A stretch of DNA of 36,894 nt from a virus. The stretch covers positions 1 to 36,894 of IMG/VR virus record IMGVR_UViG_3300020205_000249; one strand, 5' to 3'. The position numbers and the translations under genes were made by a program. Shown in pieces: positions 1,045 through 33,799 of this stretch (within the stretch, counting starts at the first letter, position 1; every line of letters starts with the position of its first letter). The notes under the pieces were generated by a model, which was not told the DNA's origin, searched no databases, and saw nothing but the letters and a program-made list of their open reading frames with translations.

Positions 1045-1260
1045 TTACAACTCTTGAACTGTGACGCGATATTGCTTGCCAAACATATCCAATACATCAA
1101 TCGTTTTTGTGGTGGAACAAAATTCTCCAAATTCACCCAAATCAAATTGCACCATGCCAACTTGGTCAATCAATTGCTCGGTGTCCCTGTTTGCCAATGT
1201 TTGATGTATTAGGGTAGCGATGTAATCGCAATATGCCAATTTCAATGTTTTGCTCATCAT
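1045..1260 (-). CDS. Small unknown protein downstream of the replication initiator
   Basis: This encodes 71 residues, starting MMSKTLKLAYCDY. The start at 1260 forms an ATGA overlap with the initiator stop, with AAAAAGGAAATC upstream; a second ATG follows at 1257. The sequence has a helical N-terminus and a beta-rich C-terminus (TKTIDVLDMFGKQYRVTVQEL). I recognise no family. Position suggests a replication-associated accessory role, but this is only context. Confidence 0.65.
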   Translation of the reverse strand: MMSKTLKLAYCDYIATLIHQTLANRDTEQLIDQVGMVQFDLGEFGEFCSTTKTIDVLDMFGKQYRVTVQEL

Positions 1261-2030
1261 GATTTCCTTTTTAAAGATGCCAGCATTTCACGCTCGGCTT
1301 GGGTTGGGGGTCGGGTTGTTTTCTCATCTGCTTTAATTTTTTCAAGCGCAGGGTCAGGCTCATTGTTCATCGGCACTGTGAGCCTTGCAACGTCGTATAA
1401 ATTTGGTTTCGCCGCTTTGCTGTTACGTACCCAATTACGCCATGTTGCCGACCAATCTAATTTCACGCCTTTTTGACCCGCTTGGGCAATCCAATAATCT
1501 TTGAACTGCTCGGCAATTTGCCTGATGTTTAAATCGGGTCGTTCGCTTTGTGCCCATTCACCCAATGATTTTGTCAAAACCCAATCGTGAGAGAGGCGCG
1601 AGCCTCGCTTGTTTTCTTTTAATTGGTTATTGGTTATTGGTTTATGGTTATTGGTTGGTTGAACGTCTGTTGAACCATCGTTTAACGTTCGTTCAACGCC
1701 CGTTGGAATTTTGTTCAACGCTCGTTTAAGTGCCGATGCTTTTCCGGCTTTGGAAGCAGTGGTTAATTGTTGTCTGTAATATTCAATTTCATTGTTGCAA
1801 CGATTGTGATGCCACCCATCATTTTGCAAAATAAAAAAATCTTCAAGAACAGTTTTTATATCGGTTGAATTGCATCGGAGCCGTCGAGCAACGGATTGAA
1901 TGTCCAACAAAATTGGTTTTTCGGTGTCGTAATACATTTCGAGCAAACGTCGATATGTTAAATCCTCATCATTGGATAAATGAGCAGTGTCGGCGCGGTA
2001 ATCGCCAATATGAAATTGAAAATAATGCAT
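1257..2030 (-). CDS. DUF1376 (YdaU-like) phage replication initiator
   Basis: This encodes 257 residues. Residues 1-95 match the DUF1376 pattern: YFQFHIGDYRADTAHLS, then EDLTYRRLLEMYYDTEKPI, as in YdaU-type replisome organisers with winged-helix character. Residues about 100-145 are a low-complexity linker. The C-terminal part has FKDYWIAQAG and LDWSATWRNWVR, typical of this family and of helicase-loader or initiator proteins. The likely role is to bind the origin and recruit the host replisome, since no polymerase or helicase is encoded. The linker DNA carries iteron-like repeats (1625-1734), the same arrangement as lambda O. ATG 2030 has GAGG seven bases upstream. Confidence 0.85.
   Translation of the reverse strand: MHYFQFHIGDYRADTAHLSNDEDLTYRRLLEMYYDTEKPILLDIQSVARRLRCNSTDIKTVLEDFFILQNDGWHHNRCNNEIEYYRQQLTTASKAGKASALKRALNKIPTGVERTLNDGSTDVQPTNNHKPITNNQLKENKRGSRLSHDWVLTKSLGEWAQSERPDLNIRQIAEQFKDYWIAQAGQKGVKLDWSATWRNWVRNSKAAKPNLYDVARLTVPMNNEPDPALEKIKADEKTTRPPTQAEREMLASLKRKS
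1625..1734. repeat. Candidate replication origin: 11-bp iterons plus 7-bp AT-rich repeats
   Basis: On the plus strand, seven units begin at 1658, 1669, 1680, 1691, 1702, 1713 and 1724, exactly 11 bp apart, with consensus GTTNAACGNYC (examples GTTGAACGTCT, GTTTAACGTTC, GTTCAACGCTC). The units at 1702 and 1724 are degenerate. Directly adjacent are four tandem 7-mers, GGTTATT or GGTTTAT, at 1625, 1632, 1639 and 1646, next to a T-rich strand. An 11-bp period does not preserve reading frame, so the pattern is not a protein repeat. Iterons beside an AT-rich repeat inside an initiator gene match the architecture of lambda ori in gene O. Origin function is inferred. Confidence 0.7.
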
Positions 2031-2576: not shown

Positions 2577-2879
2577 ATGAGTAGAGTATATGACCAATGG
2601 CTTGACAGCCGCAAACACGAATCAGACGAGTTCATGCACGAATTCGAAATGCGCACAGAACGGCATTTGCAAACTGATTGGAATCCCAAAAATTACGAAA
2701 TGTTCATTGATGCGTTATTTGACGCAGACCTTGAGCCGTACAAAACCCGATTACAAGAAGCCATTACAAAAGGCCACATGGGTGCATTGGAGATTGGCAC
2801 AATCATTTGTGACATGGTTCACGATTATTGTGAAGACAAGGCAAAACAATTAGCAAAACAAGAAATGGGACAATCATGA
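2577..2879 (+). CDS. Early acidic protein of unknown function, first gene of recombination operon
   Basis: This encodes 100 residues beginning MSRVYDQWLD, with CGGAG five bases before ATG 2577. The protein is helical and acidic; Asp/Glu dominate the N-terminal 60 residues, ending in a Lys/Gln-rich tail. There is no recognised domain, signal or membrane segment. It is the leader gene of the cassette with annealase, exonuclease and SSB, and overlaps the annealase start by 4 bp (ATGA). A role in early takeover or recombination is plausible by position only. Confidence 0.75.
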   Translation: MSRVYDQWLDSRKHESDEFMHEFEMRTERHLQTDWNPKNYEMFIDALFDADLEPYKTRLQEAITKGHMGALEIGTIICDMVHDYCEDKAKQLAKQEMGQS

Positions 2880-3427
2880 AAACATTTATTGAATTACGAA
2901 AAATCAACGTCAACCCGCACATTGAGAAAAAAGGCAATTTGTCATACCTATCATGGGCGTGGGCAGTTGATTATTTATTGCAAGAAGACCCGACAGCGCA
3001 TTGGGGTTTCCATGAACCAAGTTATTTTGGTGAAACCGTGATGGTGTCATGCACTGTAAACGCAATGGGTAAATCCATGTATATGCATTTGCCGGTCATG
3101 GACAACAAAAACAACGCCATTAAAAACCCCGACGCACGCAAAATTTCAGATGCAATGATGCGCTGTTTAGCCAAGTGCATTGCAACGTTTGGAATCGGGT
3201 TATATGTGTATGCGGGCGAAGATTTGCCATCCGAAGATGCACCCGAGCCGCTTGATGTTGACGTGTTGTTGGAAGGCATTGGATTAACTTTTTCATTGGA
3301 AGAATTGCGCGAAGTTTATTTTGCCGCAATCAAAATGGCACATGGAAATCAATCGGTTATTAAACAATTGGAATTAGCCAAAGACGCACGCAAAAAAGAA
3401 TTAACTGAGGCGGGCGTTAATGAATAA
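2876..3427 (+). CDS. DUF1071/Sak3-type single-strand annealing protein
   Basis: This encodes 183 residues. The opening KINVNPHIEKKGNLSYLSWAWA and the later DAMMRCLAKCIATFGIGLYVYAGEDLP are hallmarks of the DUF1071 (Sak3) family of phage annealases. These proteins anneal complementary single strands and pair with a 5'-3' exonuclease. The exonuclease gene follows immediately with an 8-bp overlap, making the classic SynExo pair. The C-terminal 60 residues are a variable helical tail, possibly for SSB or exonuclease contact (inference). Confidence 0.87.
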   Translation: MKTFIELRKINVNPHIEKKGNLSYLSWAWAVDYLLQEDPTAHWGFHEPSYFGETVMVSCTVNAMGKSMYMHLPVMDNKNNAIKNPDARKISDAMMRCLAKCIATFGIGLYVYAGEDLPSEDAPEPLDVDVLLEGIGLTFSLEELREVYFAAIKMAHGNQSVIKQLELAKDARKKELTEAGVNE

Positions 3428-4049
3428 TCAGCCGTACATAAACATTGAGCAAGGCTCAGACGCATGGAAGCAAGCGCGTTTGGGTCACGTTACAGCCAGC
3501 AACATGGCTGACGTAATGTCCAAAGGCAAAGGAAATACTGAAGCCGTTGGTCGTTACAAATACAAAGTCAAATTGGTTGCCGAACGTTTGACAATGACAA
3601 CAGGCGAATCATTTACAAATGCGGCTATGGAATGGGGCGTTGAACAAGAACAATTTGCTTGCATCGAATACGAGGCGGCTAAAAACGTTTTTGTTGAACG
3701 TACAGGCTTTTGGTTGCACCCAACGATGCCGTGGCTTGGCGTGTCACCAGACCGCCTTGTTGGCGACGATGGTTTGATTGAAGTGAAATGTCCCAATACG
3801 ACAACGCACCTCGGTTATTTGTTTGACAACAGAATACCGCCTGAGTATTACAAACAAATCCAATGTCAATTGTGGGTCACGGGTCGCCAATGGTGCGACT
3901 TTGTGTCTTACGACCCCCGACTGCCAAAGCGCAATCGCTTGCTGATTGTGCGTGCAGACCGAGATGAAAGTCTCATCAAAGAGATGGAAACCGAAACGAT
4001 AGCGTTTTTGGGCGAAATCAATCAATTAATCATTAAATTGGAAGGCTAA
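3420..4049 (+). CDS. YqaJ/lambda-exonuclease family 5'-3' exonuclease
   Basis: This encodes 209 residues of the YqaJ viral recombinase fold. Visible motifs are GSDAWKQARLGHVTASN (12-28), the metal and catalytic set around SPDRLVGDDGLIEVKC (D111, E121, K123), and the QIQCQLWVTGRQWCDFVSYDP block (147-166). It degrades the 5' strand of double-stranded ends to feed the annealase encoded upstream. Length is normal for the family (about 200-230). The start overlaps the annealase by 8 bp, favouring coupled translation. Confidence 0.92.
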   Translation: MNNQPYINIEQGSDAWKQARLGHVTASNMADVMSKGKGNTEAVGRYKYKVKLVAERLTMTTGESFTNAAMEWGVEQEQFACIEYEAAKNVFVERTGFWLHPTMPWLGVSPDRLVGDDGLIEVKCPNTTTHLGYLFDNRIPPEYYKQIQCQLWVTGRQWCDFVSYDPRLPKRNRLLIVRADRDESLIKEMETETIAFLGEINQLIIKLEG

Positions 4050-4051
4050 TC

Positions 4052-4453
4052 ATGGCTGTAAATAAATTCATCGGCATTGGCAATTTGGGCAAAGACCCCG
4101 AAATGCGATTCATGCCCGACGGCAAAGCGGTTTGTAATTTTTCAATTGCAATTAGCGAAAAATACAAAGACAAATCAGGCGAATCCAAAGAGGTAACCGA
4201 ATGGGTTAACGTGGCGTTGTTTGGCAAATTGGCTGAAATCGCTGGCGAATACCTGAAAAAAGGTTCAAAGGTTTACGTTGAAGGAAAAATGAAAACGGAA
4301 AAATATTCCAAAGATGGCATCGACCGCCACACAACAAAAATTATTGGCGAGAAAATGGAAATGTTAAACAGCAAAAGCGAAAATGCTGACACGCCACGGG
4401 CACAAGCAAAACCCGTAGAAACATTTGAAATGGATGATGACATTCCGTTTTAA
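4052..4453 (+). CDS. ssb: Single-stranded DNA-binding protein
   Basis: This encodes 133 residues with a bacterial-type OB fold: NKFIGIGNLGKDPEMRF, then FSIAISEKYKD, EWVNVALFGKLAEIAGEYLKKGSKVYVEG and the TTKIIGEKMEML strand. The disordered tail ends in DDDIPF, the acidic tip that recruits partner proteins in cellular SSBs. It coats single strands made by the exonuclease and at forks. It is the last gene of the recombination cassette, starting 2 bp after the exonuclease stop and followed by a strong terminator. Confidence 0.95.
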   Translation: MAVNKFIGIGNLGKDPEMRFMPDGKAVCNFSIAISEKYKDKSGESKEVTEWVNVALFGKLAEIAGEYLKKGSKVYVEGKMKTEKYSKDGIDRHTTKIIGEKMEMLNSKSENADTPRAQAKPVETFEMDDDIPF

Positions 4454-7825: not shown

Positions 7826-8374
7826 ATGACAAAATTAGCAATCAAATACAAAAAGACAACCGAACTTACAGCATACGCAAAAAACTCACGCACCCACAGC
7901 GATGAGCAAATTGCGCAATTGGTGGCAAGCCTACGTGAGTTTGGGTTTACAAATCCAATATTGATTGACGCAAAAAACAGCATTATTGCGGGTCATGGTC
8001 GGTTAAAAGCGGCTCAAGAACTTGGTTACGAAACCGTACCCACAATTGAACTTGGCGAATTAACCGAACAACAACAACAAGCGTACATTATTGCTGACAA
8101 CAAATTAGCATTAAATGCGGGATGGGACAATGAATTGCTTTTGTTTGAAATTCAACAATTGCAAAACGCTGGATTTGACGTTTCATTGATAGGATTTAAC
8201 GTTGATGAATTAAAAGCATTAAATTTTGATGATGCTGAAATTGACGAAGATTTTAAAGAGCCATCCGATGACAGCCGTAATACATTGCTAATTGAATGTA
8301 CAGGTGAACGCGAATTGGAAACGCTTTATGAAGAAATGCAAAAGCGAGGTTTTGTGTGCAAAATTATGAGTTAA
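7826..8374 (+). CDS. ParB/sulfiredoxin-fold (ParB N-terminal domain) protein
   Basis: This encodes 182 residues. Residues 1-105 contain the ParB N-terminal fold: AKNSRTHSDEQIAQLVASLREFGFTNPILID, the nucleotide-binding loop IIAGHGRLKAAQELG, and VPTIEL. There is no helix-turn-helix as in chromosome-partition ParB, so it is not a segregation protein. ParB folds of this type bind or hydrolyse CTP or act as small NTPases or nucleases. The C-terminal segment (NTLLIECTGERELETLYEEMQKRGF) is a small alpha-beta module. It overlaps the ABC-GNAT gene by 19 bp, so the two are probably partners. Confidence 0.85.
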   Translation: MTKLAIKYKKTTELTAYAKNSRTHSDEQIAQLVASLREFGFTNPILIDAKNSIIAGHGRLKAAQELGYETVPTIELGELTEQQQQAYIIADNKLALNAGWDNELLLFEIQQLQNAGFDVSLIGFNVDELKALNFDDAEIDEDFKEPSDDSRNTLLIECTGERELETLYEEMQKRGFVCKIMS

Positions 8375-24403: not shown

Positions 24404-27400
24404 ATGGTAGCGACACTTATTGCGGCGGGCGCACAATATTTAGCAACAGCAACAGGCATGACCCTTGCCTATGCTACGTTTGCCGTTAACTTTGCTGTAT
24501 CGCTAATTGTTACTCGTATTTTTGCTGACAATCCTGAAACACAGCAAGACATGGGTGTGCGTCAACAAGTACCGCCAAGTGCAGTAAACGCAATACCTGT
24601 TGTGTATGGCGATGCGTATATGGGCGGCACGTTTGTAGATGCGGTGCTGACGACCGACCAAAAAACAATGTATTACGTTTTGGCAATCTCTAGCATAAGC
24701 GAAGCAAACGCAACGCTAGGAACTGCGGCTGGAGTGTTTAATTACGACACTACAAAAATGTTTTACGGTGACCGGTTAATTACATTTGATGGCAGTGATT
24801 TAACCAAAGTAGTAAGTCTGACCGATGAAGCGGGCAACGTTGATACAAAAATTAGCGGCAATTTATACATTAATTTGTATAAATCATCCAGTGCAGGGGT
24901 AATTGCATCCGTTAATGGCGCATCTGCGCCGAGTACCGTAATGGGCGGTTCAGACATTGCTGTTGGGCAAAGATGGCCAGCGGCTAATAGGCAGATGAAT
25001 AACTTGGGTTTTGCCATTGTTAAACTGGTTTACAACCGAGATGCTGACACCACGCAATTACAACCTATTACATTTAGCGTAAGTCATTATCCAAATGGAG
25101 CAAGCGTTGCAAAGCCCGGAGATGTGTGGCTTGATTACATAACAAATAAATCTTATGGTGGTGCAATTGGTTGGTTGCCCGATGGAACATTTACCGCTAG
25201 TTATGTTGATGCAACAAGTGCTACGGCATTAAACGCTTATTCAGATGCCACAATTACTTACACACCCGCTGGTGGTGGTTCGCTAGTAACACAAGCAAGA
25301 TACAGAATTAACGGAGTTTTAGACGCGGGACAAACAGTGCTGTCCAATTTAGACCGCATTATGTCTGCTTGCGATTCGTGGATGACGTATAACGCGGCAC
25401 TTGGTCAATGGTCGGTGGTTATAAACAAAGCCGAATCTACAGCATACGCATTTACTGATAACAATATTGTTGGCGACATTCGAGTTGGCGCAACAGATAT
25501 TACATCGTCAATTAATCAGGTTGAGGCACGTTTTCCGTTTAAATCCAATCGTGACCAAGCCTCATTTGTAAACATACAAACGCCAACCGGATTACTTTAT
25601 CCAAACGAGCCTGTTAATAAATATTCAATTACATACGACATGGTAAACGACTCGGTGCAAGCGCAATACCTTGCAAATCGTTTACTGGAACAAGCCCGTG
25701 AGGATTTACTGGTTTCGTTTAACACAACGTATTACGGCATACAAGTCGACGCGGGCAACGTAATAAGCGTAACCAATGCTGATTACGGATGGAACGCCAA
25801 ATTATTTCGCGTAATGAAAGTTAACGAAGCCTCGTTGTCTGACGGTTCACTTGGCGCACGACTTGAGTTAACTGAATACAACGCACAAGTTTATGATGAT
25901 TTTGATATTACGCAATTTACACCCGCACCTAATAGTGGTTTAGCATCACCTGTATATTTTTCGCCTTTATCTGCGCCGACCATAACAGGCTTTCCATCCG
26001 CAACAATTCCAAATTTTAGCGTTACAGTTTTTATTCCAACAACAGGTCGAGTGACATTTAATAATTTATTTTTTACTACTAGTCCTACGCCTACTGCCGC
26101 TGATTGGCAATTATTAACAAGCGCAACAACCGCAAATAATCAACCCGTTGTTAATGGAACAAATTACACATACACAAATTTAACGCTTAACACTGGTACG
26201 TATTATTTTGCTTATTTAGTTGGCAATGACATAACCACCTCTACGTTAAGTCCAATCAGTGCTTCATTTGTTTGGAACCCAGTATCAGGTGCAGGTGAGG
26301 CTGGACCTTTGGCAGATATATCAGGATTAACTGTATTTTCAAGGTCAACCGCAGGAGTGGTTACTCCATCAACAGCGACACTTACCGCCGTTACTCAAAA
26401 CATAACAACACCTACTTACGCTTGGACTATTACGGGAGCAACACCTACAACTGGCTCGGCTTCTACAATTACTATTACACCTAATTCCGGCATAACAACT
26501 ATTACAGCGTCTGTAGTTATTAATGGTACTAACTTAACAAGCGCCATTACAAGAAGCATTACAACAACTGTTGTTGATGATGGTGCTAACGGTACTAATG
26601 GAACAAATGGAACTAACGGCACTAATGGAACAAACGGAACAAACGGAACTAACGGTGCAAATGGCGCATCCGCAAGGATTATGTATGCTCGCATTGCAAG
26701 CAATCCACAGCCCGTATCAGGCACAGTAACAGTAGCGGGTGACAATCGACCAACGGGTGCAGAAAGTAGTGCGGTATGGGGTGCGGCATTTAATGTTATT
26801 TGGTACGCAAATGACCCTACACCATCAAGTAATAATTCTTTGTATCAAGCGGATGGCGTTTACAACGGCACAAATACGGCTTGGGCAACGCCTTATATTT
26901 CATCATTAAAAGTTGGTGAGTTATCTGCCGTTTCTACCAATACAGGAAGTTTGACCGTTACTGGAACATTTCAATCTAATACTGCGGCTATTAGCAGTAC
27001 AACAATGACGGGTTCCGGCGGTGTTTTGTATTCAACCGGCAATTTTGCGTTTGGTAATTCAACAACTAACATTTCGTTTAATGGCACGCAAATGACCCTT
27101 AACGGCAATGTTGTTGCTACTGGAAACATTAATGCTAATGCCGTAACATTAACTTCTAGTGCTTTTACATCCGCTACGTTTTTAAACACTACAGGCGCAT
27201 ATCAAGATGCACAAACATTATCAATAACAACTAACGGAAGCCAAGTGTATGTTGCTTCATCAGGCAGTCCAATCAGCGGAACTTTTGTAGATGGAGAAAA
27301 CACAGGAAGTTTTAACCCGCAATTTAGATTACTTAGAGACTCAACCGTTTTAATGGAAGGCGGTTTTAACCCGTCAATGTCTTATAGCGATACGCCATCA

Positions 27401-27514
27401 GCGGGAACTTACACATATAAGTTGCAAGTTATCAGTACAAATCCTAGCGGAACTATCAATACATACGCAGGAATTTCTAATCGTTCACTATTTGCAATTG
27501 AGACAAAACGATGA
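24404..27514 (+). CDS. Central tail tip / host-specificity protein (J-like) with collagen-like stalk
   Basis: This encodes 1036 residues. It has a hydrophobic N-terminus (1-45), a J-like hub domain with QQVPPSAVNAIPVVYGDAYMGGTFVDAVLT, a region with DRIMSACDSWMTYNAALGQWSVVINK (baseplate-hub/fibronectin-like), then beta domains. Residues 727-753 are nine Gly-X-Asn triplets (Gly-Thr-Asn seven times), a collagen-like stalk. A C-terminal jelly-roll-like domain (FVDGENTGSFNPQFRLLRDSTVLMEGG) could bind receptor. It forms the tail tip and helps recognise the host. Confidence 0.85.
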   Translation: MVATLIAAGAQYLATATGMTLAYATFAVNFAVSLIVTRIFADNPETQQDMGVRQQVPPSAVNAIPVVYGDAYMGGTFVDAVLTTDQKTMYYVLAISSISEANATLGTAAGVFNYDTTKMFYGDRLITFDGSDLTKVVSLTDEAGNVDTKISGNLYINLYKSSSAGVIASVNGASAPSTVMGGSDIAVGQRWPAANRQMNNLGFAIVKLVYNRDADTTQLQPITFSVSHYPNGASVAKPGDVWLDYITNKSYGGAIGWLPDGTFTASYVDATSATALNAYSDATITYTPAGGGSLVTQARYRINGVLDAGQTVLSNLDRIMSACDSWMTYNAALGQWSVVINKAESTAYAFTDNNIVGDIRVGATDITSSINQVEARFPFKSNRDQASFVNIQTPTGLLYPNEPVNKYSITYDMVNDSVQAQYLANRLLEQAREDLLVSFNTTYYGIQVDAGNVISVTNADYGWNAKLFRVMKVNEASLSDGSLGARLELTEYNAQVYDDFDITQFTPAPNSGLASPVYFSPLSAPTITGFPSATIPNFSVTVFIPTTGRVTFNNLFFTTSPTPTAADWQLLTSATTANNQPVVNGTNYTYTNLTLNTGTYYFAYLVGNDITTSTLSPISASFVWNPVSGAGEAGPLADISGLTVFSRSTAGVVTPSTATLTAVTQNITTPTYAWTITGATPTTGSASTITITPNSGITTITASVVINGTNLTSAITRSITTTVVDDGANGTNGTNGTNGTNGTNGTNGTNGANGASARIMYARIASNPQPVSGTVTVAGDNRPTGAESSAVWGAAFNVIWYANDPTPSSNNSLYQADGVYNGTNTAWATPYISSLKVGELSAVSTNTGSLTVTGTFQSNTAAISSTTMTGSGGVLYSTGNFAFGNSTTNISFNGTQMTLNGNVVATGNINANAVTLTSSAFTSATFLNTTGAYQDAQTLSITTNGSQVYVASSGSPISGTFVDGENTGSFNPQFRLLRDSTVLMEGGFNPSMSYSDTPSAGTYTYKLQVISTNPSGTINTYAGISNRSLFAIETKR
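26582..26662 (+). repeat. Collagen-like 9-bp coding repeats (Gly-X-Asn)
   Basis: Nine consecutive 9-bp units encode Gly-Ala-Asn, seven Gly-Thr-Asn, and Gly-Ala-Asn. Codons vary (GGT/GGA/GGC, ACT/ACA, AAT/AAC), so the repeat is maintained at protein level, yet its units are similar enough for slippage. Confidence 0.9.
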
Positions 27515-28501: not shown

Positions 28502-31500
28502 ATGGCTATACAAAAAGTTGTGGTTGTTGACGGAAACAACCTTATTGTTCGTATTGACCGCGGTGTCGCGGGTCGTAGCGTTACAGATGTTGAACCAGTT
28601 GAGATTAGTGGTTCGCTATATCTTGTTTTTACATTTTCTGATGGCACAACGGAAACAGTTGGTCCTGTAGGAACAGTTGCGTATGTTGGTCAATCACCAA
28701 TCGTTATTAACGCTTCCACAATTAGTTTAACCACAGTTCCAGTTAACTTAGGCGGCACAGGGCAAATTACTGCTAACGCAGGGTTTAATGCCCTTGCACC
28801 TACGCAAACTGGAAATTCGGGTAAATACCTAAAAACAGATGGTACAAATTCCGCATGGGATTTATTGGACATTTCCACTGCTGACATTACAGGCACGTTG
28901 CCAATCGTTAATGGTGGTACGGGACAGACAACTGCTAATACGGGTTTAAATGCTTTGTTGCCGGTGCAAACAGGGCAAGCAAATAAGTATCTGCAAACCG
29001 ATGGCACAAACACATCTTGGGATGCAATTAGTTTATCAACTGCGGATATTACTGGCGTACTGCCCGTTGTTAATGGTGGCACTGGCGTAACTACGTCAAC
29101 CGGAACTGGTAGTACCGTTTTGTCAACATCCCCGACTTTTATAACACCTATCTTAGGAACACCCACTTCGGCAACCCTTACAAACGCTACAGGATTGCCC
29201 GTAAGCACCGGAATTAGCGGATTAGGTACTGGCGTAGCAACTTTCCTTGCAACTCCTACAAGCGCAAATTTAGCCTCTGCCGTTACGGATGAAACTGGAA
29301 CTGGCGCATTGGTATTTGGTACAAGCCCTACGTTAACAACTCCCGTGATTGGTCAAATCAATGACGCAAACGGGAATGAAATTCTTGGCCTTGTTCCTGT
29401 TACCTCGGCAACTGATTACGTGGCTATTAAAAATGGCATTGGCGTTGGTGCGCCTTTGCACATTTACGCTGAAGGTTCAAGCGCAAATACTGGTTTACAC
29501 ATTCAGCCCAAAGGCACAGGGCTTGTAACTATTAGCGATGGTACGGACTTTAACAAAGGCATCCGTTTCCGTAGTTCAGGAAGTGCGGCAAGTGCCGTTA
29601 CCTTGTTGGATGCCGTTGCTACTGCGGGTCGTGTAGTTACATTGCCTGATGCAAACACTACATTGGTAGGTAGAGATACTACGGACACGTTAACAAATAA
29701 AACGCTGACAAGTCCCATAATGACTTCACCCGCATTGGGAACACCCGCTTCGGGAATAATGACCAATGTTACGGGAACAGCCGCAGGGTTAACTGCGGGT
29801 AACGTCACTACAAACGCCAACTTAACTGGCGCAGTTACATCCGTTGGTAATACCACCTCGCTTGGTAGTTTTACATCGGCTAATCTTGCCGCGGCTTTAA
29901 CCGATGAAACCGGCACAGGCGCGGCAGTGTTTGCTGATTCACCAACGCTTATTACACCGGCACTTGGCACGCCATCCGCTTTGGTTGGTACTAATATTAC
30001 GGGTACGGCTTTGGGTTTAACCGCGGGCAATGTTACGACAAATGCCAATTTAACTGGCATGGTCACATCGGTTGGCAACGCTACGACAGTTGTTACCAAT
30101 GCAAATTTGACAGGCGGTGTAACGTCTGTTGGTAATGCAACAACCGTTGTTACAAACGCCAATCTTACGGGCGACGTAACCTCTGTTGGCAATGCAACTA
30201 CGTTGGCTACTGTTGCCACGGCAGGAGTTACAGGGTCTAGCACAGCGATTCCCGTAGTAACAATTAACGCCAAAGGTTTGACTACAAGCATTACAACAGC
30301 CGCGGTTATTGCACCGGCAGGAACATTAACTGGCTCAACATTGGCGTCGGGCGTGACAGCATCGTCATTGACAAGCCTTGGCACGATTGCCAATTTGTCT
30401 GTAACTGCCGGCACGATTGCGACAACGCCATCAGCCGCTACGGACATTGCCAATAAGGATTACGTGGATACTGTGGCGCAAGGTCTTGACCCTAAAGCCT
30501 CATGCGTTGCCGCAACAACTATTGACATTATTTTGTCAGCCCCACAAACCATTGATGGTATTGCTTTAATTGCGGGCGACAGATGCTTGGTAAAAAATCA
30601 AACCGCACAGGCCGACAACGGCATTTATGTTGTAGCCGCAGGGTCTTGGACTCGCGCAACCGATATGAACACATGGTCAGAAGTATCGGGCGCGTTTACC
30701 TTTATTGAACAAGGCACGACACAAGCCGACACTGGTTGGGTTTGCACATCCAATGCGGGCGGCACGTTAGGCACTACGCCAATTACGTTTGTTCAGTTTG
30801 CGGGCGTTGGTTCTTACACCGCGGGTACTGGCCTAACTTTGACAGGCACGCAATTTAGCCTTACAACGCCCGTTACCGTGGCTTTGGGCGGTACTAATTC
30901 GACAAGCGCGGGCATAGGCTCATTTAACAACATCACCGGTTATACGGCCTCCGGTGCGACAGGCACAACGTCAACCAACTTGGTGTTTAGCACATCGCCC
31001 ACTTTAGTTACTCCTATTCTTGGCACTCCGCAATCGGCAACGCTAACCAACGCAACTGGCTTACCACTTACGACAGGCGTAACGGGTACATTGCCTATTT
31101 TAAATGGCGGCACAGGACAAACGACAGCGGCGGCGGCAATCACCGCATTGTCGGGTACGCAAACATCAGGCTATTACTTGCGCTCTGACGGTACAAATAC
31201 AGCACTTGCGGCAATTGTTGCGGGTGACGTACCAACGCTAAACCAAAACACTACAGGCACGGCGGCAAACATTACCGCGGCAAGCAACGCAACGCTAACT
31301 ACATTAAGTGCGTTAAGTTTGGCAGGGTCGCAAGTTACGGGCAACATCACAGGCAATGCCGGAAATGTTACGGGTACGGTTGCCATCGCAAACGGCGGCA
31401 CAGGCTTAACAACAACGCCCGCTAATGGCGCATTGGACATTGGTAACGGCACAGGCTTTACGCGCACAACATTAACTGCCGGTTCAGGCGTAAGCATTAC

Positions 31501-33799
31501 TAACGCATCGGGTGCAATTACGATTAACGCAACCGGCCTAGGCGGTACAGTAACTAGCGTTGCGGCAAGTGTTCCATCGTTCTTGTCTATTGCGGGTTCA
31601 CCCATCACAACTAGCGGCACATTGGCAATTAGTTTGTCGGGTACGGCATTGCCTACAACATCGGGCGGTACGGGGCTTACATCTTTTACCGCTAATGGCG
31701 TTGCGTATGCAAGTTCATCAAGTGCATTGGCTACTGGCTCTGCGCTTACTTTTGATGGGACAAGTTTAGGTATTGGGTCTGATGTTGGTGTTAGCCCTAC
31801 AAACGGATTGACTCGTTCTTGGGGGGACTCCAAAGTTTTTTCAAGAATGTTTTTTGATGCATCTTATTACATGGAAATAAGTGCAAGTGCGGCTACTCGT
31901 GCTATTAATTACACAGTTAATTCTGGAGATGCAACTGCTAAACACGTTTGGAATCTTGGGGATGCTGGCACTCCTTCAGGAGCAATGCTCCTAAACTCAA
32001 CAGGTTTGTCTATTGGTGGCACAAGCAATCCATCAGACGCAAGATTGTATTTGGAAAGCGCAAGCACCGCAGGAACTTTGTTAAATATTAGAAACACATC
32101 TACTGGTGGTTATTCTTGGAATATTGTTTCAGTTGGTTCAGCGGCAGTACTTGCACCAGTAGGCTCTTTGGCGTTTAGGGATAGCACCAATGGTGCGACT
32201 CGAATGGTCATTGACTCGTCAGGCAATTTGCTTGTTGGAAACACAGGAGGAACAGGCTACCGACTTAATGTTCTTGCGGCTTTTTCTTCAGGCATAGGCG
32301 GTGCTTACATTGAAGCGGGTGAATTTAACCAATCTGCTTTGATTGTTAATCACACCAATGCTTCTGTTGGAGTTCCATTATTTCAAGTTCAAAAAAGCGG
32401 AACTGCTGTAGTTTCAGTAGCAGCAAGTGGTACTTTTAATGTTCCAAATAATTTTGTTTCAAGTACAGGTTGGCAATCTAACGGAACATCATATACAACA
32501 GCAGCGGCAATATACAACGGCTTATATGGTGTTTCATCGGATGTGCTTGCTTTTGCAATAGCAGGAAGTCAAGCAATGACGCTAAATGCGTCTGCGAATT
32601 TGGGCATTGGCGAAACAAGTCCAGCGGCAAGACTTGATTTAAGAAGTTCAGCAACTGACTTTACTGGGGTGATACTTAACAACACAAGTACCAATGGCAA
32701 AAAATATAACCTTGTTTCTGCGGGTTCTAGCAGTTACTTTGATATTCCTGCAGGGGCTTTTGGTATTCGTGACATTACAGCAAGCGCAACTCGATTTGTT
32801 ATTGATACGTCAGGCAATGTAGGTATTGGCACTGCATCACCAACCGCAAAACTAGAGTTGTTTAGCAACGCAGACGCCAACTTTGGGATTAAAATTTATC
32901 AAAGTTCAGTATCGCTTGCAACTCAAAGATTTCCACAAGTTGAACTTTCTCATACTCCAATTGCTCAAGGTTACCAAAACAAAGTATTTCTTAGACAGCA
33001 AAATTCTATTATTTACGGTAATTATCCATCTTTTGCCATTATTACAAATGCCGCTAGTGCGGGTGAAGTTACAAGATTGTTTCTTGATGGATTTTCAGGC
33101 AATTTAGATTTAACAACAGGCGGTGCAGTCTTTACCACTAACAGAGGTTTGTATGACCAACAAACAAAGTTCTACCAAGACAGTGGTGGTGCTGGCGCTC
33201 AATACGAAACAACAAACCCGTCTGTAAATGCTCAGTATTATCCTCATGTTTTTAAAGGCACAAACAATGCGCCAACAACAGTGGAGTATGGAAGGTTTAA
33301 TCAGTTTGGTTTAGGTTTAGGTGGTGGCAATCCATCATCAGGAACAGGCATCACATTCCCCGCAACTCAATCAGCATCATCAAACGCTAATACGCTAGAT
33401 GACTATGAGCAAGGGACTTGGACACCTACGCTTTATGGTGCTAGTGGAACTATTGGTACTTATGCACAGGGTTATAACAATGGAACATACACAAAAATTG
33501 GAAACGTAGTCTATTGCTATGGCGCAGTTGGCATATCAAATATAGGTAGTTGGAGTGGTACAGTTCAGGTGGATTTGCCTATACCTCCAAATTCTTCAGC
33601 ACAACAAGGTACTGGTACGGTTCGTTCTCAAGAACATACATTTGATGGTGCGCTTGTATTTGAATGGTCAACTGCTGGTTCTGCCGCTAGATTTAATGTA
33701 ACAAAATCAGCAACTGGTCAAGTAAATTTGCAATTTAGCAATCTTACGGCGGCTTCAGGAAACTACTTATCATTCTCACTTGTTTATGTAACTGATTAA
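28502..33799 (+). CDS. Giant repeat-rich tail fibre
   Basis: This encodes 1765 residues. The first 60 residues are a beta adaptor (KVVVVDGNNLIVRID). Residues about 80-1080 are fibre repeats such as GTLPIVNGGTGQTTA, SPTFITPILGTPTSATLTNATGLP and VTSVGNATTVVTNANLTG. Residues 620-780 hold the inserted YVDTVAQGLDPKASCVAAT domain, common in fibres. The last 700 residues carry IGGT/LGIG-type shaft repeats (NVGIGTASPTAKLEL) and a C-terminal DYEQGTWTPTLYG head domain. No S74 autochaperone is seen. It recognises the host surface. Confidence 0.88.
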   Translation: MAIQKVVVVDGNNLIVRIDRGVAGRSVTDVEPVEISGSLYLVFTFSDGTTETVGPVGTVAYVGQSPIVINASTISLTTVPVNLGGTGQITANAGFNALAPTQTGNSGKYLKTDGTNSAWDLLDISTADITGTLPIVNGGTGQTTANTGLNALLPVQTGQANKYLQTDGTNTSWDAISLSTADITGVLPVVNGGTGVTTSTGTGSTVLSTSPTFITPILGTPTSATLTNATGLPVSTGISGLGTGVATFLATPTSANLASAVTDETGTGALVFGTSPTLTTPVIGQINDANGNEILGLVPVTSATDYVAIKNGIGVGAPLHIYAEGSSANTGLHIQPKGTGLVTISDGTDFNKGIRFRSSGSAASAVTLLDAVATAGRVVTLPDANTTLVGRDTTDTLTNKTLTSPIMTSPALGTPASGIMTNVTGTAAGLTAGNVTTNANLTGAVTSVGNTTSLGSFTSANLAAALTDETGTGAAVFADSPTLITPALGTPSALVGTNITGTALGLTAGNVTTNANLTGMVTSVGNATTVVTNANLTGGVTSVGNATTVVTNANLTGDVTSVGNATTLATVATAGVTGSSTAIPVVTINAKGLTTSITTAAVIAPAGTLTGSTLASGVTASSLTSLGTIANLSVTAGTIATTPSAATDIANKDYVDTVAQGLDPKASCVAATTIDIILSAPQTIDGIALIAGDRCLVKNQTAQADNGIYVVAAGSWTRATDMNTWSEVSGAFTFIEQGTTQADTGWVCTSNAGGTLGTTPITFVQFAGVGSYTAGTGLTLTGTQFSLTTPVTVALGGTNSTSAGIGSFNNITGYTASGATGTTSTNLVFSTSPTLVTPILGTPQSATLTNATGLPLTTGVTGTLPILNGGTGQTTAAAAITALSGTQTSGYYLRSDGTNTALAAIVAGDVPTLNQNTTGTAANITAASNATLTTLSALSLAGSQVTGNITGNAGNVTGTVAIANGGTGLTTTPANGALDIGNGTGFTRTTLTAGSGVSITNASGAITINATGLGGTVTSVAASVPSFLSIAGSPITTSGTLAISLSGTALPTTSGGTGLTSFTANGVAYASSSSALATGSALTFDGTSLGIGSDVGVSPTNGLTRSWGDSKVFSRMFFDASYYMEISASAATRAINYTVNSGDATAKHVWNLGDAGTPSGAMLLNSTGLSIGGTSNPSDARLYLESASTAGTLLNIRNTSTGGYSWNIVSVGSAAVLAPVGSLAFRDSTNGATRMVIDSSGNLLVGNTGGTGYRLNVLAAFSSGIGGAYIEAGEFNQSALIVNHTNASVGVPLFQVQKSGTAVVSVAASGTFNVPNNFVSSTGWQSNGTSYTTAAAIYNGLYGVSSDVLAFAIAGSQAMTLNASANLGIGETSPAARLDLRSSATDFTGVILNNTSTNGKKYNLVSAGSSSYFDIPAGAFGIRDITASATRFVIDTSGNVGIGTASPTAKLELFSNADANFGIKIYQSSVSLATQRFPQVELSHTPIAQGYQNKVFLRQQNSIIYGNYPSFAIITNAASAGEVTRLFLDGFSGNLDLTTGGAVFTTNRGLYDQQTKFYQDSGGAGAQYETTNPSVNAQYYPHVFKGTNNAPTTVEYGRFNQFGLGLGGGNPSSGTGITFPATQSASSNANTLDDYEQGTWTPTLYGASGTIGTYAQGYNNGTYTKIGNVVYCYGAVGISNIGSWSGTVQVDLPIPPNSSAQQGTGTVRSQEHTFDGALVFEWSTAGSAARFNVTKSATGQVNLQFSNLTAASGNYLSFSLVYVTD
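30062..30215 (+). repeat. 57-bp tandem coding repeats in tail fibre
   Basis: Units begin at 30062, 30119 and 30176 (third partial), each encoding 19 residues of the form VTSVGNATTVVTNANLTGx. Related copies occur near 29803 and 30028. Silent differences between units are frequent, so they are old duplications kept by selection on the protein. Confidence 0.8.

Follow-up and report, generated by a model that had tools for sequence, protein, structure and literature searches.

A gene for a DUF1376 protein in a viral genome carries, in its middle, short repeats spaced by about one helical turn, followed by a run of AT-rich 7-mers. Are these repeats a replication origin placed inside the gene of its own initiator, or do they mirror the encoded peptide, regulate a promoter or serve partition or recombination? 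We examined this question in IMG/VR record IMGVR_UViG_3300020205_000249 (positions 1 to 36,894; "the window" denotes this whole stretch of 36,894 nucleotides) and in relatives of the gene. Features are listed in Table 1.

Table 1. Positions of the features of the DUF1376 locus and the evidence on which each rests.
Feature	Position	Strand	Basis
DUF1376 protein gene (257 aa), proposed replication initiator	1257..2030	minus	PF07120 and PHROG
Codons of N-terminal DUF1376 domain, residues 1-83, predicted winged helix	1782..2030	minus	AlphaFold2 model
Codons of basic motif KAGKASALKR, on long helix 76-106; class-1 motif co-varying with GTTNAAC boxes	1722..1751	minus	Class/box association and model
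Iteron array of seven 11-bp units with the core GTTNAAC, good in five; unit 1702 degenerate, unit 1724 partial	1658..1734		Period scan, matrix, shuffles
Five tandem 7-mers ATTGGTT (gene strand AACCAAT), directly after last iteron; proposed unwinding/ssDNA-loading element	1622..1656		TRF period 7
AT-rich, easily melted tract holding the 7-mers, 26% GC	1612..1657		Duplex weakness
Codons of C-terminal DnaT-like domain, proposed ssDNA-binding/primosome-recruiting	1410..1616	minus	Model of this part alone

Phased repeats under selection at the DNA level

The original prediction described seven GTT-type units at an exact spacing of 11 bp, and this was confirmed: on the plus strand, GTT recurs at 1658, 1669, 1680, 1691, 1702, 1713 and 1724, and the array is the strongest period-11 site of the record. 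The best stretch of seven units in all 36,894 bases starts at 1653/1654, where period-11 column identity is 0.78 against a mean of 0.46 (sd 0.038), about eight sd above the mean. The proposed consensus, GTTNAACGNYC, fits some units but does not hold in full for all; the core GTTNAAC is present in five of the seven, with unit 1702 (GTTGGAATTTT) degenerate and unit 1724 (GTTTAAGTGCC) partial. Using a weight matrix built from the units of other phages, with the window record left out, five phased units at this site scored 54.4, while the next best place on the same strand reached 6.8 (mean -9.4, sd 1.9). The tandem 7-mers predicted beside the iterons are likewise real. TRF reports 5.0 copies of ATTGGTT with 85% matches (1622-1656), which can alternatively be counted as four copies of GGTTATT from 1625, and the tract around them falls within the weakest 0.6% of the record's 40-bp stretches and is near the weakest in the gene.

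Together the two DNA arrays encode a central segment of the protein, residues about 99-136. Could they merely echo repetition in the peptide or a bias in codon usage, the DNA itself playing no part? The encoded peptides (TNNHKPITNN and similar) do look somewhat repetitive, and 33 bp correspond to 11 codons. Synonymous shuffles, however, retain the peptide and lose the signal: with the matrix built also without the closest relative (L004), none of 1000 shuffles reached the observed score (54.7, against a shuffled mean of 25.3 and maximum of 50.9). Moreover, a step of 11 bp is not a whole number of codons, and each unit shifts the frame; one and the same DNA word, the box core, encodes different residues in the three frames, and in every frame its variable base is one that makes no stop codon. 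The explanation by peptide or codon usage is contradicted at the level tested and we reject it as having next to no chance of being correct; the selection at the DNA level that had been inferred from the spacing and from the non-repetitive linker is upheld.

Other features of the window were recorded in passing. A tandem repeat of 9/18/27 bp lies at 26586-26664 within a 1036-aa ORF (24404-27514), and a 57-bp tandem repeat of 2.4 copies at 30071-30205 within a 1765-aa ORF (28502-33799). Near the DUF1376 gene, which is divergent from it, is a recombination cassette (2876-4453) encoding a Sak-type annealing protein, a YqaJ exonuclease and an SSB. GC skew, proposed earlier as a check on the origin, turns near 1-2 kb, but this turn coincides with a switch in gene orientation and proves nothing; it was therefore not used as evidence for an origin.

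The protein encoded around the array

The window protein matches PF07120 over residues 2-83 (E=4.2e-24, 85.2 bits, cut-off 30.1). This is the only Pfam family over its cut-off, that for PF04492 (Phage_rep_O) not being met, and the PHROG families that match the protein are annotated as primosomal or replication initiation proteins. No match was found in NCBIfam, and neither single-sequence nor profile searches of PDB sequences found a relative. The AlphaFold2 model is confident across residues 11-80 (pLDDT about 90-96). The best structural neighbours of the N-terminal domain are winged-helix DNA-binding proteins, at a modest Z of about 5; when the complete model was searched against the PDB, all that emerged were weak similarities to winged-helix proteins, with E above 0.3. 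Residues 111-139, where much of both arrays is encoded, are predicted to be disordered, so that the PF07120 match and the predicted disorder both support the earlier placement of the array within the linker of a DUF1376 gene.

When the C-terminal part was modelled alone, its top structural match was DnaT84-153 with dT10 (4ou6; Z 6.5, 63 of 70 residues, rmsd 3.5), and the next unrelated entry had a Z of 2.8. At the sequence level no match to DnaT was obtained by Pfam (E up to 1) or by profile search of PDB sequences. The models thus predict a winged helix, a long basic helix, a disordered linker and a DnaT-like ssDNA-binding domain, in that order. The C-terminal region also matches RepA-like replication initiators of mycobacteriophages. 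DnaB- or DnaC-like genes, some recognised by a Walker A motif only, adjoin several members of the DUF1376 family.

Periodicity across the DUF1376 family

Relatives were collected from viral contigs, annotated phages and bacterial genomes, giving 96 non-redundant DUF1376 genes; a diverse alignment yielded no usable pattern for a genome scan, whereas a narrower one did. Against synonymous shuffles that preserved the protein and codon usage of each gene, the linker DNA of the 96 genes is more strongly periodic, mainly at 7/14/21 and 11/22/33 bp and only slightly at neighbouring periods. For the 11-bp period the mean z is 1.67 (t=11, n=96). In a fresh set of 39 DUF1376 genes, fetched after the first 96, peaks were again found at 7, 11, 14 and 22 bp. 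The C-terminal coding part of DUF1376 genes is nearly flat, 112 unrelated flanking ORFs are flat with no excess, and lambda O, the positive control, returned periods of 20/23/24, equal to its known spacing of 20-24 bp. The finding is family-wide across DUF1376, wider than was first supposed.

Loss of phasing in close relatives that keep the protein sequence had been set beforehand as a result that would refute the origin. It was not seen in most close relatives, in which the GTTNAAC cores are conserved in register and the spacers vary; one (L007) has lost a single box unit. The search for 11-bp-phased linker repeats in related phages succeeded beyond these, in that distant relatives keep the phasing even where the box sequence is fully changed. 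Some DUF1376 members depart from strict 11-bp phasing of their boxes, and this, with the modest winged-helix match, is a weakness of the case.

Box sequence follows a motif in the protein

Immediately behind the DUF1376 domain lies a short basic motif, and the sequence of the repeat varies together with it. In class 1, AGKASA in the protein accompanies GTTNAAC boxes; in class 2, GGRPK accompanies AACCCA/TGGGTT boxes; in class 3, ARW accompanies GCAATG/GCGAACGC boxes. Over 135 genes, with class 1 widened to AGRASA, the matching box was found in 15/20 genes within class 1 and 0/115 outside it, 33/50 and 2/85 for class 2, and 17/21 and 2/114 for class 3 (Fisher p about 1e-16 per class). The class patterns had been derived from the initial 96 genes; applied as strictly frozen regexes to the fresh set, all three passed (p = 0.04, 7e-4 and 1e-3 for classes 1, 2 and 3). 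There, frozen class 1 gave 2/3 against 3/36, all three outsiders being AGRASA variants, and AACCCA was absent from half of the class-2 genes. These p-values are optimistic because the genes are related rather than independent.

Distances from core to core gather at 11/22/33/44 bp, with class-1 counts of 27/16/14/8. An AT-rich 7-mer array follows the last box in class-1, class-2 and several class-3 genes, and the 7-mers are common to different classes while the boxes are class-specific, as would be expected if a variable motif reads the boxes and a constant partner reads the 7-mers. Many relatives have further class-matched cores within the DUF1376-domain codons, a second array; each class is enriched there in its own core (class 1, 2.10 against 0.77 in shuffles; class 2, 0.60 against 0.23; class 3, 1.19 against 0.27). 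The domain codons of the window gene contain one strong box unit only (1872), and we do not claim the weak extra array. Seven other genes (L097, L079, L052, L110, L101, L075 and L085) have class-matched 11-bp boxes at about nucleotides 105-200 of the gene, upstream of the linker array.

The three classes do not cover the family. An attempt to define an 11-bp core for a fourth class (GAAKRW) was not convincing, and many of the remaining DUF1376 genes have no clear array. Acinetobacter-type genes carry GTAACG at about 12 bp and no clean 11-bp array; five genes from bacterial genomes (L178, L180, L182, L188 and L191) have linker repeats of GTAACG type that recur about every 12 bp, and the peptide encoded downstream of them is different. 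The linkers of three further genes (L108, L111 and L114) combine the motif NKARW/NKSRW with TCAGATC-like boxes at 11-12 bp, and probably represent another box class.

That box class tracks the protein would also be compatible with the boxes being operators, through which the DUF1376 protein controls its own or a neighbouring promoter while replication starts elsewhere; a row of boxes occupied by a winged-helix protein can serve in this way. Yet the array lies about 300 bp into the coding sequence and borders at its end on a readily melting 7-mer tract, in the layout of lambda ori, and regulation leaves the DnaT-like ssDNA-binding fold at the C-terminus unexplained. We regard operators as improbable. 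Still less probable is a role of the array in partition, as a centromere-like site, or as a hot spot for recombination between phage replication modules. A ParB-like protein is indeed encoded at 7826-8374, but its matches include many ParB-like nuclease and methyltransferase families, and ParA was not seen among the genes tested. Recombination could be invoked since C-terminal domains differ among DUF1376 members, different ones being joined behind the same linker; a hot spot, however, needs neither helical phasing nor class-specific boxes, and on either account it would remain that box class follows the DUF1376 motif.

Comparison with known origins

Lambda and related phages are known to have their origin within the initiator gene (PMC7466680). 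The comparison with lambda ori in gene O that was drawn at the outset is borne out, repeats within the initiator gene adjoining an AT-rich tract in both. Lambda O (and also P22 gene 18) resembles the window locus in its mid-gene repeats, AT-rich tract downstream, initiator-helicase module and type-specific boxes. It differs in having four 18-bp iterons spaced 20-24 bp, according to annotation and the periodicity control, instead of 11-bp spacing, and its initiator belongs to Phage_rep_O (PF04492) rather than DUF1376. Iteron plasmids likewise have phased direct repeats beside an AT-rich unwinding tract and winged-helix initiators, but their longer iterons are located outside coding sequences.

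A closer precedent in spacing is gene 18 of Salmonella phage L, an initiator gene with 11-bp direct repeats described as a likely origin (PMC8022706). In it, as in the window, 11-bp repeats (TGTCCAACGGA) are followed by an AT-rich stretch, and their core resembles the class-1 box. Unlike the window protein, the phage L initiator is O-like and has no detectable similarity to DUF1376, even to the DUF1376 profile with filters off, and phage L encodes its own DnaB-like helicase, of which there was no sign among the window genes tested. The array was located at 31649-31725 of the phage L sequence (L253), a case of the same layout and a similar core in an unrelated initiator family. The shared 11-bp layout is likely convergence. 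In mycobacteriophages, RepA is necessary and sufficient for replication, with the ori in or immediately beside its gene, and no repeats were reported in the regions those authors examined (PMC7157519). RepA-like initiators share a homologous C-terminal region with the window protein, a relationship not shown for the particular proteins of that study, and have a different N-terminal part.

The original prediction knew of no description of such an origin in DUF1376 phages. None was found, nor any of an initiator role for DUF1376, in the open-access texts available, which represent only part of the literature; intragenic 11-bp repeats as such had already been published for phage L gene 18, which is not a DUF1376 gene. 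On that partial evidence, intragenic origins and intragenic 11-bp repeats are known, and an origin of this kind for DUF1376 is apparently undescribed.

The Rac prophage of Escherichia coli K-12 has an active origin, oriJ (PMC3945230). Its YdaU is a DUF1376 protein of the same motif class as the window protein, with phased GTTNAA boxes in the linker. Three phased class-1 boxes are present in ydaU, better than any of 500 shuffles at four and five units, and they form the best phased site in their 10-kb region, although the array is more degenerate than that of the window. The ydaU linker boxes are a candidate for oriJ, whose exact position is not established in the open-access texts available.

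A proposed origin and its initiator

We conclude that 1612-1734 is very probably the phage's theta replication origin, lambda-like and within the linker of its own initiator gene, with the reservation that there are no binding, footprint, replication or read-depth data. As far as sequence comparison can establish, the 11-bp-phased boxes and AT-rich 7-mers are under DNA-level selection, their layout is conserved across DUF1376 and the box is tied to the protein motif; binding of the initiator to the boxes and origin activity are inferred and have not been shown. In the mechanism we propose, the winged-helix domain and basic helix would bind the boxes so that each turn of the helix takes up one protomer and all protomers lie on the same side of the duplex, and the assembled complex would strain and then melt the adjacent 26% GC 7-mer tract, acting as the unwinding element. 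By way of the flexible linker, the C-terminal DnaT-like domain may then grip the single-stranded DNA so exposed and recruit host DnaB. Loading in this phage would involve host DnaC, which we invoke because no helicase or loader gene was found among the window genes tested. Location of the origin inside the initiator gene would keep the protein and its cognate site linked when replication modules are exchanged between phages.

More broadly, and with some preference rather than assurance, we suggest that DUF1376 proteins are self-addressed initiators: a motif on one helix would set the type of 11-bp box, the boxes would lie in the same gene, often in both linker and domain codons, and motif and boxes would be swapped as a cassette before interchangeable C-terminal domains. 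If this is true, the family holds a readable code of protein-DNA specificity, along with a natural collection of initiator-origin pairs that differ jointly in a few residues and in an 11-bp box. Origins could then be read straight from sequence and located in hundreds of phages and prophages, oriJ included, for which the ydaU linker is proposed as the precise place. A Pfam family that is still listed as having no known function would also gain one that can be tested.
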